Below, piece after piece: positions 1,795 to 6,484 of a DNA stretch of 7,009 nt. The DNA comes from an uncultured Bacilli bacterium (GTDB lineage Bacteria > Bacillota_I > Bacilli_A > RF39 > UBA660): positions 1 to 7,009 of the forward strand of contig CALVKC010000059.1 in assembly GCA_944332505.1 (NCBI GenBank), in the 5' to 3' direction. The notes beneath the pieces were generated by a model, which was not told the DNA's origin, did no database searches, and saw nothing but the letters and a program-made list of their open reading frames with translations. The first letter of the stretch is position 1. Each line of letters starts with the position of its first letter. The translations under genes and the position numbers were made by a program.

Positions 1795-1823
1795 AATATA
1801 TAATAGTTTTTAATTATTGTCAA
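1795..1823 (-). promoter_or_regulatory. aspS: Promoter for the aspS T-box leader
   Basis: A perfect -35 TTGACA (1823-1818) is separated by exactly 17 nt from -10 TATATT (1800-1795, five of six matches), predicting a start near 1788. The -35 lies inside the last codons of the preceding gene, whose stop is at 1812-1810. A second, weaker candidate is TTGTAA (1790-1785), an 18-nt spacer and TATTTA (1766-1761). It would start transcription near 1754, right at the base of stem I. Either or both may be used. AT-rich DNA produces such boxes by chance, but the exact -35 and ideal spacing favour the first. Confidence 0.7.
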
Positions 1824-3282
1824 TATTTTCCCTTGTTCTATTTAAAGCACCAGGTAAAACAAATGTTGCATGATCATGTAATAATTTCATTCTATATTCT
1901 TCATCTTTAATCATTAATATAAGATCATCAATATATTTTTTATTATTAGGATTACTTATTCTATTTAATATATCTGTATTTTTTCTTCCCATAATACATA
2001 CTCCAATTACCAAATATATACCAGGATATAGTTCTAAAAATAATATTTGAACTTCTTTATTAAATACTTGAAATACATTATAATTATCTATAGGTATTTT
2101 ATTAAATGTTTTTGCATTTTCAACTTTTATTCTATTTAATAAATTATATGACCTTTTTCTAATACCTTTATCCAATGACATTACATCTTCAGAAAAATAA
2201 CAAACTCCATTTTTATCAGTTAAAAAGACTAAATTATTATCATTAATTTTTTCTTCTTTTTCTTCTAATAATTCTGCTAATTTATCAAATAAAGTTGCTA
2301 ATTCTTCTCGCAAATATAATTTATCTTCATTATCATTTGTTTCTAAATATAATGTTTTAATTGATTTTATTTCTTTTAAAATTTCTAATAGTTGCATTCT
2401 AATCGTATCATAATGTCTTAATTCTTGAACTTTTAAATAAGCTTTTTGCCATAGTTCTAAATCAAATCCTTCAATCAATTCTTTTATAGTTTTATTATCA
2501 ATTTCAGTTGTTTCTTCTGTACCTGATAAACAAAAACTTTCATTTATTGGAATGTCTTTTATACTCTCTATTGGTTTAGCAATATAGTTGGCACAATATT
2601 CTTGATACAAATTATCTAATTTTTGTGAAGCTTCTAAAACTTTTTCAAAATGTTCTAAATTTATTACAAAAGCAGTATTTTCAAACATAGCTCTAAATAA
2701 ATTATTAAAAGCATCTAAATAACTATCATCAGCCCCAAAAAGGAATTCACCTTTAATATTATAAAATTTAGCTAATCTTACAGCTGCTTCTTCTAAAGCA
2801 ACAGGGTTTTCATTTCTCTTTTTACTTGCTAAATGAATAGATGAACCTAAAACAATATTAAAATCTTCTAAAGTTAATAAATTTGTACTATAAAAAGTAA
2901 ACAAAGCATTTAAAATATCATACAATTTGTCATTTACATTAATGGCTTTTTCGTTATCAAAAGAACTAACTAAACACTTAAGTCTATAAAGTATAAATTT
3001 AGTTTTTTCAACATTTTCCATTATACAATCATATTCACCAAGCAATTTATCACATGCCTTCAATACTTTTTGCTCTATTTTTTTTCTTTTTCCATGAATA
3101 ATAATTTCAAGACTATCACCATTTAATTTTACCCCTATTACGTATGGCTCATTTTCAACAGATTTTGTAATTTTTTGATAAATATCTTGTCTTTTTACTA
3201 ATAATTCATTTAAGAATTCTTCTTCAATACTTATCCGTCTTCTTATAATATCTTTGAACTTTTCAAAAGAACTTTTTTCCAT
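1810..3282 (-). CDS. Hypothetical 490-residue protein, no recognised family
   Basis: I do not recognise this protein and assign no function. ATG at 3282 is chosen because AGGAG (3296-3292) lies 9 nt upstream; a TTG three codons earlier (3291) would touch the Shine-Dalgarno sequence. The protein is highly charged, lacks a signal peptide or membrane segments, and is therefore probably cytoplasmic. The first 100 residues mix helices with a short beta segment (SLEIIIHGKRKKIEQK, about 57-72). The middle (100-350) is mainly helical, with a coiled-coil-like Glu/Lys/Leu stretch near 295-345. The last 130 residues read as strand, helix, three hydrophobic strands (NVFQVF, VQILFLEL, GIYLVIGVCIMG, about 402-431), then helix. 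That tail faintly recalls RelE/HigB-type folds, which is a guess. It sits between dtd and aspS, where hisS is common in Bacillus-type loci. It has its own strong promoter and matches its neighbours' base composition. Confidence 0.85.
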   Translation of the reverse strand: MEKSSFEKFKDIIRRRISIEEEFLNELLVKRQDIYQKITKSVENEPYVIGVKLNGDSLEIIIHGKRKKIEQKVLKACDKLLGEYDCIMENVEKTKFILYRLKCLVSSFDNEKAINVNDKLYDILNALFTFYSTNLLTLEDFNIVLGSSIHLASKKRNENPVALEEAAVRLAKFYNIKGEFLFGADDSYLDAFNNLFRAMFENTAFVINLEHFEKVLEASQKLDNLYQEYCANYIAKPIESIKDIPINESFCLSGTEETTEIDNKTIKELIEGFDLELWQKAYLKVQELRHYDTIRMQLLEILKEIKSIKTLYLETNDNEDKLYLREELATLFDKLAELLEEKEEKINDNNLVFLTDKNGVCYFSEDVMSLDKGIRKRSYNLLNRIKVENAKTFNKIPIDNYNVFQVFNKEVQILFLELYPGIYLVIGVCIMGRKNTDILNRISNPNNKKYIDDLILMIKDEEYRMKLLHDHATFVLPGALNRTRENIDNN

Positions 3283-3310
3283 ATAAAACAACTCCTTTTA
3301 ATAAAAAGTT

Positions 3311-3339: not shown

Positions 3340-3774
3340 CTATAATTCAAGTATTATTGTAACAGGACCTGAATTAGTAATATTTACTTGCATATCAGCA
3401 CCAAAAATCCCAGGATATGTTTTAATATATTTATTTAACTCTTCATTAAATTTATCATATAAAATTATTGCTTTATCACCACTTAATGCATTAATATAAG
3501 AAGGTCTATTACCTTTTTTAGTATCAGCATATAAAGTAAATTGAGATATGGATAAAATCTCTCCACCAACATCTAAAATGGATTTATTCATTACTCCATT
3601 CTCATCATCAAAAATTCGGAGATTGACTATTTTTTTAGCCATAGTTACTAATTTACTTTCATCATCACCTTCAGTAAATCCCACTAATAAAACTAAACCA
3701 CTATCGATTTTATTTATAAGTTTATTATTTACTGAAACACTACTTTCTTTACTTCTTTGTACTATTACTTTCAT
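3340..3774 (-). CDS. dtd: D-aminoacyl-tRNA deacylase
   Basis: DTD hydrolyses the ester bond of D-aminoacyl-tRNAs (and mischarged Gly-tRNA-Ala), recycling the tRNA and keeping D-residues out of proteins; it acts as a cytoplasmic dimer. The 144-residue length is normal for the family (about 145-150). The N-terminus MKVIVQRSKESSVSV matches the usual M-R-x-V-x-Q-R-V start. The active-site SQFTL is at 77-81, GNRPSY at 88-93, and the Gly-cis-Pro chirality-gate motif NSGPVT at 134-139, so all key elements are intact. The ATG at 3774 is preceded by AAAGGAAT about 7 nt upstream and lies inside the 3' end of the upstream HAD gene (26-nt overlap), implying translational coupling. Neighbouring rel and dtd genes are typical of Firmicutes. 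Confidence 0.96.
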   Translation of the reverse strand: MKVIVQRSKESSVSVNNKLINKIDSGLVLLVGFTEGDDESKLVTMAKKIVNLRIFDDENGVMNKSILDVGGEILSISQFTLYADTKKGNRPSYINALSGDKAIILYDKFNEELNKYIKTYPGIFGADMQVNITNSGPVTIILEL

Positions 3775-4336
3775 TATCTAATTCCTTTAATAAAATATTT
3801 TTTACTTCTAACCAATTATTAGCCCTAATAATCCCATTTTCTTTTAAAAATTCACCATCTAAATCTTTATTATGATATGATGTAAATAATATTTTGATAT
3901 CAGCATTTACTAAATTATCAATTTTATCATCAATTTTAATATCACAATTTATTATAGATTTATTATTTACAAATGCATAATTATTTACTGGAATAAATGG
4001 TAATTTTTCACATAAATAATTATGTTTGTATAACAAAAGAATACCACATTCTTTAGGAATTTCTTTAATAATATAAGATGAACAAATGTATATATCATAA
4101 TAATCTTTTAAAATATTTAATACTTCTACTACATCAGGTATTAATATACCATAATCATATTGATTTTTTGTTATATAATACTTAAAAAAAGCATCTTTAT
4201 CAGAAATTAAATCCTGCATATAGTATCCTTTAACATCATCTTTTGTATAATTTGTTCCTGCAAATTCATTTATTAGATGAAGAAATCCTCCTTCAGTAAT
4301 TACTTCATCCATATCTACCATTACTGTTTTTTTCAT
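3749..4336 (-). CDS. HAD-superfamily protein, 5'-deoxyribonucleotidase (NT5C)-like
   Basis: This is a 195-residue cytoplasmic HAD phosphatase-like protein that probably removes the 5' phosphate from (deoxy)nucleoside monophosphates. HAD motif I is VDMDEVIT (7-14), with nucleophile Asp8 and acid/base Asp10. The motif II serines are in ICSSY (84-88), a likely motif III lysine is near 126, and motif IV is KIDDKIDNL (134-142). The C-terminal RANNWLEV resembles the NT5C family ending (R-x-N-N-W-x-E-V). Length fits the family. The start has AAGGAG (4346-4341) 5 nt upstream, and this site includes the last base of the rel TAA stop, so the gap is only 9 nt and the two genes are surely cotranscribed. 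Its end overlaps dtd. The exact substrate cannot be read from sequence; HAD members range widely, so the specific name is less sure than the superfamily. Confidence 0.85.
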   Translation of the reverse strand: MKKTVMVDMDEVITEGGFLHLINEFAGTNYTKDDVKGYYMQDLISDKDAFFKYYITKNQYDYGILIPDVVEVLNILKDYYDIYICSSYIIKEIPKECGILLLYKHNYLCEKLPFIPVNNYAFVNNKSIINCDIKIDDKIDNLVNADIKILFTSYHNKDLDGEFLKENGIIRANNWLEVKNILLKELDNESNSTKK

Positions 4337-4345
4337 AAATACTCC

Positions 4346-6475
4346 TTAATGTAAAACATTACTTACATCTACTACACCATTAAGTTTCAATATAGCATTT
4401 TTTATTTTTTCTAATTCATTTGTATCTTTTATTCTAATATTTAATTCATAAATTAATTTATCATCATTATCTATTGTCTTACATGACCTTACTAAAGAAT
4501 CCTTTTTACCTATTTCAGTTATTACTTCTGCTAAAATATCTTTCGTATCTTTTATAGATACATAAATATTTGTATAATAATAATTTACACTATCCATATT
4601 CCAAGATACATTAATTAATCTATTAGAATTATTAGCAACATTTGGACAATCTTTTTTATGAACACTTATACCTTGTCCTTTAGTAATAAAACCAATTATT
4701 TCATCACCTTTAACAGGCATACAACATTTAGCAATATTAACCATTATATTACCTATACCTTCAACTAATATATCACTCTTATAATTAATCTTAGGCATTA
4801 CTCTTTTCTTTTCAATTAATATATCATCAACTTGCTTTTCTTCATCACTACATAAATTAATAATATATCCTGCCGTATATCTTAAAGAACCAACTCCTAA
4901 ATATAATTCTTCTAAATCTTTTAGTTTTAATTCTTTTAAAATCTTTTCTATATTTTCATTATTTAAAACGTCATTAAATGCTAATTTTCTCTTTCTTAAT
5001 TCTTTTTCTAATATTTCTTTACCCTTACTAATGTATAATTCCTTATCTTGTTTACTAAAATATGCCTTAATTTTATTTTTAGCTTGATTAGTTTTAGCAA
5101 TATTTAACCAATCTTTATTTGGAGTAGCATTAGGATTAGTTTTTATACTTACTACATCTTCATTTTGTAAAGTATATGAAAGAGGTACTATTTGATCATT
5201 TACTATGGCTCCAACTGTTGTATCTCCCACTTGAGAATGAATTCGATAAGCAAAATCTATCGGAGTTGAGCCCATAGGAAGTTCTACTACATCACCTTTT
5301 GGTGTATATGTATATATTAAATCTGTAAATAAATCTGTATTTATAGATTGTTCAAAATCAATGTCATTTTCTTCTTGACTAGATTCAATAATATTACGAA
5401 ACATTTCTAATTTTTGTTCCATAATATTTTGAATTTTTTTAGTTCCTTTTTCTTTATATGACCAATGACTTGCTAAACCTTTTTCAGCAATTTCATCCAT
5501 TTCATAAGTTCTAACTTGAATTTCAAATACTTGACCTTCTACCCCAAAAACAGTTGTATGTAAAGATTGATACATGTTTTCTTTAGGGCTAGCAATATAA
5601 TCTTTAAATCTCTTAGGCATTGGTCTAAAACGGGAATGAATTAAACCTATAACTTGATAACATTCTGCTTCTGTATTTACAAATACTCTTAAAGCTAAAA
5701 TATCATAGATATTATCCCATTTCTTACCATTTTGTAATTTATTATAGATACTATATACACTTTTAACTCGTCCTTTTATTTCAAACTTTAATCCTGCATC
5801 AGTAAGTAACTCTATAATACTTTCTTTCATTTCTTCTAAATAGTCATTTAATTCAGATACAGTATTATTTAATTTTTCTAATATATCATTATAAACTTCT
5901 GGTTTTAAATAATAAAGTGATAAATTTTCTAATTCACTTTTTATCGAATTAATACCAAGACGATGGGCAATTGGCACTAAAACAGTCATTGTTTCATTTG
6001 CCTTTTGCTTTTGTTTTAAAGGATTAATCGCCCAATTGGTACGCATGTTATGTAATCTATCTGCAAGTTTTATGTATAAAACACGTACATCTTCTGCAAG
6101 TCCTACTAATATTTTACGAAGATATATAACTGAAGATTCATTATTATCAGGTAGTTCTAATTTATTTATCTTAGATACTGAATTAACAATCATTGCTACT
6201 TCTTCTCCAAAATCTTCTTTTAAATCTTCATATGTTTTATTACCATTATTAATTACTTCATGTAATAATGAAGCAATAATAGTTGTATCATCAACATTTA
6301 AATCAAGTAGTATCTTGGTAACTTCTAAAGGATGTGTAATAAAATCATCACCAGTAAGTCTTTTCATACCACTATGTTCTTTTAAAGCATATTCATATGC
6401 TCTTTTTATTTCATCATAGTTTTCTCTTTTTTTTAGTCTACTTTCTAACTGTTCAAATGTTATTGCTTTTTCCAA
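4346..6475 (-). CDS. relA: Rel/RelA-SpoT (p)ppGpp synthetase with degenerate hydrolase motif
   Basis: Long RSH proteins bind ribosomes and make (p)ppGpp from GTP/GDP and ATP during amino-acid starvation; many also hydrolyse it. Residues are numbered from the possible GTG at 6484 (712 residues). The HD domain (about 25-150) keeps His51 (THP) and Asp142 (LADRLHN), but HDxxED reads HEVINN (75-80). The synthetase domain (about 235-345) looks active: YD at 260-261, RFKD at 292-295 (the basic form of bifunctional enzymes) and EIQVRT at 321-326; NGY is changed to NMY (303-305). TGS (about 388-450), helical, conserved-cysteine (CC at 587-588, C613) and ACT (about 636-712) regions follow, so length is full. 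I prefer TTG at 6475 as the start, because GAGGTG (6487-6482) is spaced 6 nt from it; the GTG lies within that site. Likely a synthetase, with hydrolysis doubtful. Confidence 0.95.
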   Translation of the reverse strand: MEKAITFEQLESRLKKRENYDEIKRAYEYALKEHSGMKRLTGDDFITHPLEVTKILLDLNVDDTTIIASLLHEVINNGNKTYEDLKEDFGEEVAMIVNSVSKINKLELPDNNESSVIYLRKILVGLAEDVRVLYIKLADRLHNMRTNWAINPLKQKQKANETMTVLVPIAHRLGINSIKSELENLSLYYLKPEVYNDILEKLNNTVSELNDYLEEMKESIIELLTDAGLKFEIKGRVKSVYSIYNKLQNGKKWDNIYDILALRVFVNTEAECYQVIGLIHSRFRPMPKRFKDYIASPKENMYQSLHTTVFGVEGQVFEIQVRTYEMDEIAEKGLASHWSYKEKGTKKIQNIMEQKLEMFRNIIESSQEENDIDFEQSINTDLFTDLIYTYTPKGDVVELPMGSTPIDFAYRIHSQVGDTTVGAIVNDQIVPLSYTLQNEDVVSIKTNPNATPNKDWLNIAKTNQAKNKIKAYFSKQDKELYISKGKEILEKELRKRKLAFNDVLNNENIEKILKELKLKDLEELYLGVGSLRYTAGYIINLCSDEEKQVDDILIEKKRVMPKINYKSDILVEGIGNIMVNIAKCCMPVKGDEIIGFITKGQGISVHKKDCPNVANNSNRLINVSWNMDSVNYYYTNIYVSIKDTKDILAEVITEIGKKDSLVRSCKTIDNDDKLIYELNIRIKDTNELEKIKNAILKLNGVVDVSNVLH

Positions 6476-6484
6476 TGTATTCAC

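Follow-up and report, generated by a model that had tools for sequence, protein, structure and literature searches.

A Rel with an altered hydrolase motif and a second RSH with the opposite lesion in an order of uncultured Bacilli

The window, a 7,009-nucleotide stretch of DNA from an uncultured Bacilli bacterium, encodes a long RSH protein (Rel1; Table 1) whose hydrolase (HD) domain carries HEVINN at the position of HDxxED. Does such a protein still hydrolyze ppGpp, and if it does not, what removes the ppGpp that its synthetase (SYN) domain may make? The initial annotation of the locus called the motif ruined and reasoned that, were Rel1 the only long RSH in the cell, another enzyme would have to remove ppGpp or the Asn form would work in some undescribed way.

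Table 1. Features of the window (residue numbers are those of Rel1)
Feature	Position	Strand	Remark
rel (Rel1)	4346..6484	-	long RSH, 712 aa, predicted synthetase-only [hS]
HEVINN (H75 E76 V77 I78 N79 N80), HDxxED position	6245..6262	-	codon reading
HD (hydrolase) domain, residues 25-178 (Pfam 29-178)	5951..6412	-	predicted catalytically dead, pocket conserved
F48 (SpoT_Ab Y51 position) to H51 (metal-ligand position)	6332..6343	-	
D142, metal-ligand position	6059..6061	-	
Synthetase domain, residues 190-345	5450..5917	-	D261, RFKD 292-295, E321 intact
TGS domain, residues 390-449	5138..5317	-	H416 in 79/79 clade rows
RIS (461-612) and ACT (636-707)	4364..5104	-	C587, C588, H609, C613 in 79/79 clade rows
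NT5C-like nucleotidase	3749..4336	-	between rel and dtd
dtd	3340..3774	-	downstream of rel

The minus-strand codons CAT GAA GTA ATT AAT AAT encode HEVINN at residues 75-80 of Rel1, as first annotated; the span originally given for the motif (6239..6262) covers it plus the next two codons (G81, N82). In 6yxa (B. subtilis Rel), the top PDB match, the corresponding columns carry HDVVED. Rel1 has the full architecture of a long RSH (HD_4, RelA_SpoT, TGS, RIS and ACT by domain profile search) and scores 685 bits against TIGR00691 (cut-off 499). It retains H51, H75 and D142 as well as RFKD 292-295, D261 and E321, all of which the initial annotation had listed as present, and the checked synthetase residues are invariant in the 79 aligned rows of the clade described below. 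With HEVINN, Rel1 lacks the intact HDxxED of a bifunctional Rel[HS] and shows the RelA-type pattern of lost hydrolase and kept synthetase residues. Its score against the RelA equivalog NF008124 is 423 bits (cut-off 728), so it is not a member of that family, and in a tree built without proteobacterial RelA it groups with the Rels of its own order. The start of the gene is uncertain; AGAGGTG, which overlaps the listed GTG, would fit initiation at the TTG of codon 4.

Published substitutions bear on what these changes do. The available part of one study reports that substitution of Y51, E82, D83 or N147 leaves A. baumannii SpoT (SpoT_Ab) dead for hydrolysis (PMC9974481). For Rel_Seq, an excerpt of PMC13299517 cites earlier work in which hydrolysis was abolished by R44Q and D78A and synthesis by D264G and E323Q; it also gives Arg44 and Asn148 as guanine contacts, and these two map to R42 and N146 of Rel1, both invariant in the clade. 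F48 of Rel1, a change absent from the initial annotation, falls at the SpoT_Ab Y51 position when its spacing from the metal His in the alignment is used for mapping. Because SpoT_Ab loses hydrolysis when either the E or the D of the motif is substituted, the best-supported prediction is that ppGpp hydrolysis by Rel1 is lost or very weak; ppGpp synthesis is plausible. Both predictions had been made at the outset and are supported here.

A contig scan found 115 relatives, of which the best 80 were kept. They are labelled uncultured Bacilli, Bacillota, Tenericutes, Mycoplasma, Mycoplasmatota, Erysipelotrichaceae, Candidatus Caccenecus or only bacterium, and their order is probably GTDB's RF39. 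HE occupies positions 75-76 in 78 of these 80; the other two, L067 (HDVLDY) and L074 (HDTLDH), have HD and a D at 79. Since 78 of 80 relatives share HE, a sequencing error at HEVINN is excluded, and the comparison of close relatives proposed in the initial annotation rules out an assembly error and finds the HEVINN-type motif fixed in the lineage. Position 76 of the clade Rels is E in 79/79, position 79 is N in 78 (D in 1), and position 80 is N in 66, H in 10, S in 2 and D in 1. Position 48, that of SpoT Y51, is F in 55, Y in 23 and L in 1, compared with Y in 49 and F in 2 of 51 HDxxED Rels.

HDxxED is intact in other genomes of the same order. Among 138 long Rels, including that of the window, 81 are HE-type, 52 HDxxED and 5 other. 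In the tree, an HE clade of 79 HE rows and the 2 HD..D rows (local support 100%) is nested among HDxxED Rels. Separate motif damage occurs in G123 and G141 (HEVLKC, included in the 81), G148 (HDVINI), G174 (HDTMKE) and G084 (HDVTRT), the last of which adjoins the HE clade with 80% support. A tree of 118 requires at least five changes of motif state. One further HE-type Rel, L328 3-1913 (G062), appears to lack ~20 residues, in frame, between HD and SYN and is cut by the contig end.

The possibility that the cell has Rel1 as its only long RSH is not borne out. An HD_4 search detected a second ORF of 480-541 aa in 9 of 12 clade genomes, and both nearest MAGs encode such a protein, here called Rel2: L083 in G001 (the MAG of L001, with a Rel 99% identical to that of the window) and L082 in G002 (97% identical). 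Each is ~490 aa, with an intact hydrolase motif (HDTIED and HDTLED, respectively) and with QMQIRT at the synthetase motif vs EIQVRT in the window Rel1. Among 71 Rel2 proteins, R42, H51, H75, D76, E79, D80, D142, R143 and N146 (window numbering) are present in all 71, and position 321 is Q in 65, L in 2, and K, R, D and H in 1 each, with Glu in none. These counts cover only proteins >440 aa, a limit that excludes two Rel2 truncated by contig ends (315 and 370 aa), and follow removal by hand of 8 HD_4 proteins without RSH synthetase similarity (one only 235 aa). Two database searches, in each of which the best 120 of about 8000 scored were taken, gave 236 homologues: the synthetase Glu position is Gln in 235, with no pattern match in 1, and HDxxED was recognized by pattern in 231, the other 5 showing it in their motif strings. 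The Glu-to-Gln change corresponds in nature to the laboratory mutant E323Q, a synthetase null according to the excerpt cited above.

Rel2 ends soon after TGS, at a median of 9 residues beyond window position 470. The two Rel2 proteins scanned had no RIS or ACT match, and Rel2 lacks the cysteines that Rel1 keeps in 79/79 rows. All 71 thus combine an intact HD catalytic set with loss of the synthetase carboxylate, as in SpoT[Hs]; the full C-terminal regulatory region of SpoT is missing, and scores of 335 and 424 bits vs 947 for the SpoT equivalog NF008303 (two proteins) place Rel2 outside that family. Truncation after TGS is a trait that Rel2 shares with RshC. Matches to RelA_SpoT and TGS set Rel2 apart from small alarmone hydrolases, which consist of HD only. 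Because the RelA_SpoT profile matches only Rel1 and Rel2 in G001 and G002, no synthetase other than Rel1 is predicted in these two genomes. G001 has two smaller HD_4 matches besides, one of them below cut-off.

An unrooted tree, in which the Rel2 branches are long, puts Rel1, Rel2 and the outside Bacilli each on one side of a branch. Gene conversion, suggested by the 60% identity between the HD domains of Rel1 and Rel2 in G174, was rejected because Rel1 and Rel2 stay apart in the HD tree and in the SYN tree alike. The alpha6-alpha7 region shows no length difference between the classes. In G174 (L199), Rel2 and the Rel1 with the damaged motif share a strand and fall within 9.2 kb, separated by dtd-like, probable hisS and Asx-tRNA synthetase ORFs (named by reading). 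The Rel2 of G128 (G128:C1:119648-120086, L226) is split over two frames; Rel1 of G128 keeps HDxxED. Over 20 regions the surroundings of Rel2 vary and indicate no function.

We checked 118 genomes for the presence of Rel1 and Rel2. The sample is non-random: the 62 genomes from the HE clade were included as relatives of the window and account for 62 of the 80 loci, and the 56 others were hand-picked from high-scoring long hits, which favours HDxxED. HD_4 alone detected Rel2 in 47/62 clade genomes. A search with a Rel2 profile, which covered the 18 genomes that had a damaged motif and no Rel2 by HD_4 as well as 8 others, added contig-end fragments in G253 and G265, giving 49/62, or 49/60 with HE and 0/2 with HD..D. 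Rel2 was not detected by HD_4 or the Rel2 profile in the remaining 13 clade genomes (11 HE, 2 HD..D) or in the damaged-motif genomes G084, G123 and G141, and the profile, applied to 4 of the 35 HDxxED genomes without Rel2, found none there. Strict dependence of a damaged Rel1 on Rel2 is not supported in view of the 13 clade genomes and of G084, G123 and G141. By HD_4 alone, 49/67 damaged-motif genomes (47 of the clade, G148 and G174) have Rel2 vs 16/51 HDxxED genomes (including G128), with a Fisher p of 7e-6 that ignores kinship; after correction for kinship, with only 4-5 independent motif losses pairable, the association is not significant.

The AlaRS marker is absent in 4/62 clade genomes, and translation-GTPase marker counts range from 4 to 12 per genome. 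Some genomes without Rel2 have low counts (4 in G277; 5 in G253, G265 and G266, counted when Rel2-less by HD_4), and in others they are unremarkable (10 in G204, G268, G009, G084 and G141; 9 in G123). Because the counts are not low in several Rel2-less genomes, some Rel2 absences look real. In a class sample of 149 genomes, 18 are shared with the order sample, and at least 8 of these 18 have a second RSH of 478-509 aa; among the matches listed (down to E 2.6e-13), none of that size occurs in the other 131 genomes, 120 of which have an HD_4 match.

Two lineages without detected Rel2 are observations in their own right. L067 and L074 (G010 and G011) are nested in the HE clade and have Y at 48 along with D at 79; regain of hydrolysis after Rel2 loss is a possible history. 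G011 also encodes a 229-aa HD_4 protein (L096) with HDVMED. In a sister lineage, L181 and L190 (G123 and G141) show a convergent change of HD to HE, together with ED to KC.

We consider it probable, at roughly 0.75, that Rel1 and Rel2 divide the two activities as Rel[hS] and Rel2[Hs], with Rel1 synthetase-only and Rel2 the hydrolase, and that this division arose separately from RelA/SpoT. Rel1 would have descended vertically as the Rel of an order of uncultured Bacilli and turned into a synthetase-only and presumably ribosome-responsive alarmone synthase. With N-N in place of the acidic pair and Phe at the position of the catalytic Tyr, its HD domain would be unable to activate water. Rel2, with a complete HD site, and with its synthetase carboxylate and post-TGS part lost, would hydrolyze ppGpp, probably independently of the ribosome. 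The arrangement resembles an independent RelA/SpoT-style split.

The HD domain of Rel1 is conserved in ways that bear on what it may still do. Eight residues (R42, H51, H75, E76, K139, D142, R143 and N146) are invariant in 79/79 clade rows, and 9/11 pocket sites are at least 98% fixed in the HE clade vs 60/154 in the HD domain (p 3.6e-3); sister HDxxED Rels fix 10/11, so the HE clade is not more constrained at the pocket than its sisters. Just three HD switches, D76E, E79N and I168V, reach 90% fixation or more in the clade where HDxxED Rels and 29 outside Bacilli (selected by best HD_4 score) have another residue fixed. Identity to these outside Bacilli is 42.6% for the HD domain of the HE clade vs 50.2% for that of HDxxED Rels, and 49.4% and 53.0%, respectively, for SYN (15 and 17 rows vs 29). 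The HD/SYN divergence ratio is 1.08 in the HE clade, 1.38 in sister HDxxED Rels and 0.70 in Rel2. Rough dN/dS values, from pairs with dS up to 1.5, are 0.185 (HD) and 0.178 (SYN) in the HE clade, 0.224 and 0.156 in HDxxED Rels, and 0.294 and 0.577 in Rel2, whose synthetase domain is relaxed. The HD domain of the HE clade seems not to have decayed; its distance from outside Bacilli fits early change followed by constraint. The term "ruined" is too strong for the site, which looks changed and then held because D76E and E79N are fixed and the surrounding pocket is kept.

The fixed metal-ligand and guanine-contact positions suggest a non-cleaving sensor, a tentative extension of the Rel1/Rel2 division in which the altered HD domain would bind Mn2+ and (p)ppGpp and its occupancy would set the synthetase. 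The eight invariant residues, among them the homologues of the Rel_Seq guanine contacts, N79 in 78/79, the three fixed switches and the similar dN/dS of HD and SYN are consistent with it; against it, such conservation could serve folding or HD-SYN contacts, and the sister HDxxED Rels hold the pocket as well. The fuller version, in which the hydrolase site became a held, non-cutting alarmone or metal sensor with a swapped, fixed set at the water-activating positions (E, N, N or H, often F), ppGpp occupancy, which hydrolysis would no longer end, sets the synthetase, and destruction passed to a Rel2 devoid of the ribosome-binding end, is somewhat unlikely.

That the HD domain is instead a plain relic, serving only as scaffold or for domain contacts, we also regard as rather unlikely. 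The pseudo-HD of E. coli RelA lacks HDxxED and is nevertheless kept and regulatory, according to the available sections of PMC8012599, and the greater distance of the HE-clade HD domain from outside Bacilli fits such a fate. In E. coli RelA, however, the ligand positions too are lost (alignment with 5iqr), whereas in the HE clade they are invariant, the HD domain is constrained about as much as SYN, and a kept pocket is unexpected in a plain dead domain.

It is improbable that the HE..N(N/H) site still hydrolyzes ppGpp, slowly or with another metal, and leaves Rel1 bifunctional. The metal-ligand positions are kept with D to E as the sole change, and some genomes have an HE-type Rel and no detected Rel2; on the other side, both acidic residues and usually the Tyr, reported as essential in the part of the SpoT_Ab study cited above, are replaced, and 49/62 clade genomes have an intact-looking second hydrolase.

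The genes around rel offer a further candidate. The common neighbourhood in the order is a divergent MurJ-like gene, rel and dtd, with dtd downstream of rel in most loci with long enough flank. The NT5C gene is a local insertion, found between rel and dtd in 12/80 loci, all close relatives (some contigs are short), and beside rel in 0/20 regions that surround Rels outside the HE clade; given these counts, we reject it as a hydrolase that replaces that of Rel1 in general. Between dtd and aspS the window has a 493-aa ORF (1810-3291, minus strand) with no Pfam or NCBIfam match, which has a counterpart at this position in L001 and L002 only and weaker similarity (23-31%) elsewhere in four loci. 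HD_4 with an intact HDVVED is fused to a P-loop domain in L170 1483-2844, L171 669-2021 and L227 1-1815; the P-loop part is AAA_28 by Pfam in L170 and was read by eye in L171 and L227. G127 and G252, which carry such fusions, are HE genomes without detected Rel2. HD_4 matches of similar size, by size alone, occur in G054, G078, G102, G234 and G260, and L172 430-1989 (G260) has an HD_4-like domain followed by ~300 further residues.

That unrelated enzymes (Nudix, NT5C or other HD_4 proteins) remove ppGpp and Rel2 has another role is very improbable: other HDxxED HD_4 proteins do occur in some genomes, among them G011, G127 and G252, these three all without detected Rel2, but NT5C adjoins rel in close relatives only and the hydrolase set of Rel2 is complete and conserved. 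The early suggestion that a Nudix enzyme or other phosphatase might have to act, if Rel1 were the only long RSH, is narrowed: neither is needed where Rel2 is present, and either is possible in the genomes without detected Rel2.

If the Rel1/Rel2 division is correct, ppGpp making and breaking would have split independently and nearly completely outside Proteobacteria. The order offers a natural series, with HDxxED, five damaged forms and one genome pair with HD..D again, that would allow tests of two questions: is a dead hydrolase domain a relic or a sensor, and how does a two-way enzyme become two one-way enzymes? Domain hits alone do not justify calling such RSHs bifunctional. In the open-licence PMC literature we found nothing linking RF39 with ppGpp and no title on a pair of this type; the Mollicutes entry in the portion available of Atkinson 2011 is "Rel; 0 (Mycoplasma)" (PMC3153485).

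Among known systems, canonical bifunctional Rel shares with Rel1 the full domain set and the rel-dtd neighbourhood, and Rel1 clusters with HDxxED Rels from its own order; the canonical protein has HDxxED where Rel1 has HEVINN. RshC of Bacillus, known here by description, is like Rel2 a second RSH that ends soon after TGS; in the passages available it is truncated in the helical domain after TGS, termed [HS] and restricted to six Bacillus strains (PMC3153485). E. coli RelA[hS], as partly described above, is like Rel1 in its intact synthetase and C-terminal part and its lost HDxxED, and differs at the ligand positions. A further parallel is that of the Moraxellaceae, for which complete subfunctionalization of RSHs into RelA[hS] and SpoT[Hs] is described in the available parts of two reports (PMC3153485, PMC9974481). 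There, as predicted here for Rel1 and Rel2, one long RSH is without hydrolysis and the other without synthesis, and the dead domains are kept. The Moraxellaceae pair belongs to a different phylum, and against it Rel2 lacks the C-terminal part after TGS, the HD domain of Rel1 keeps its metal-ligand positions, and Rel1 and Rel2 fall below the RelA and SpoT equivalog cut-offs.
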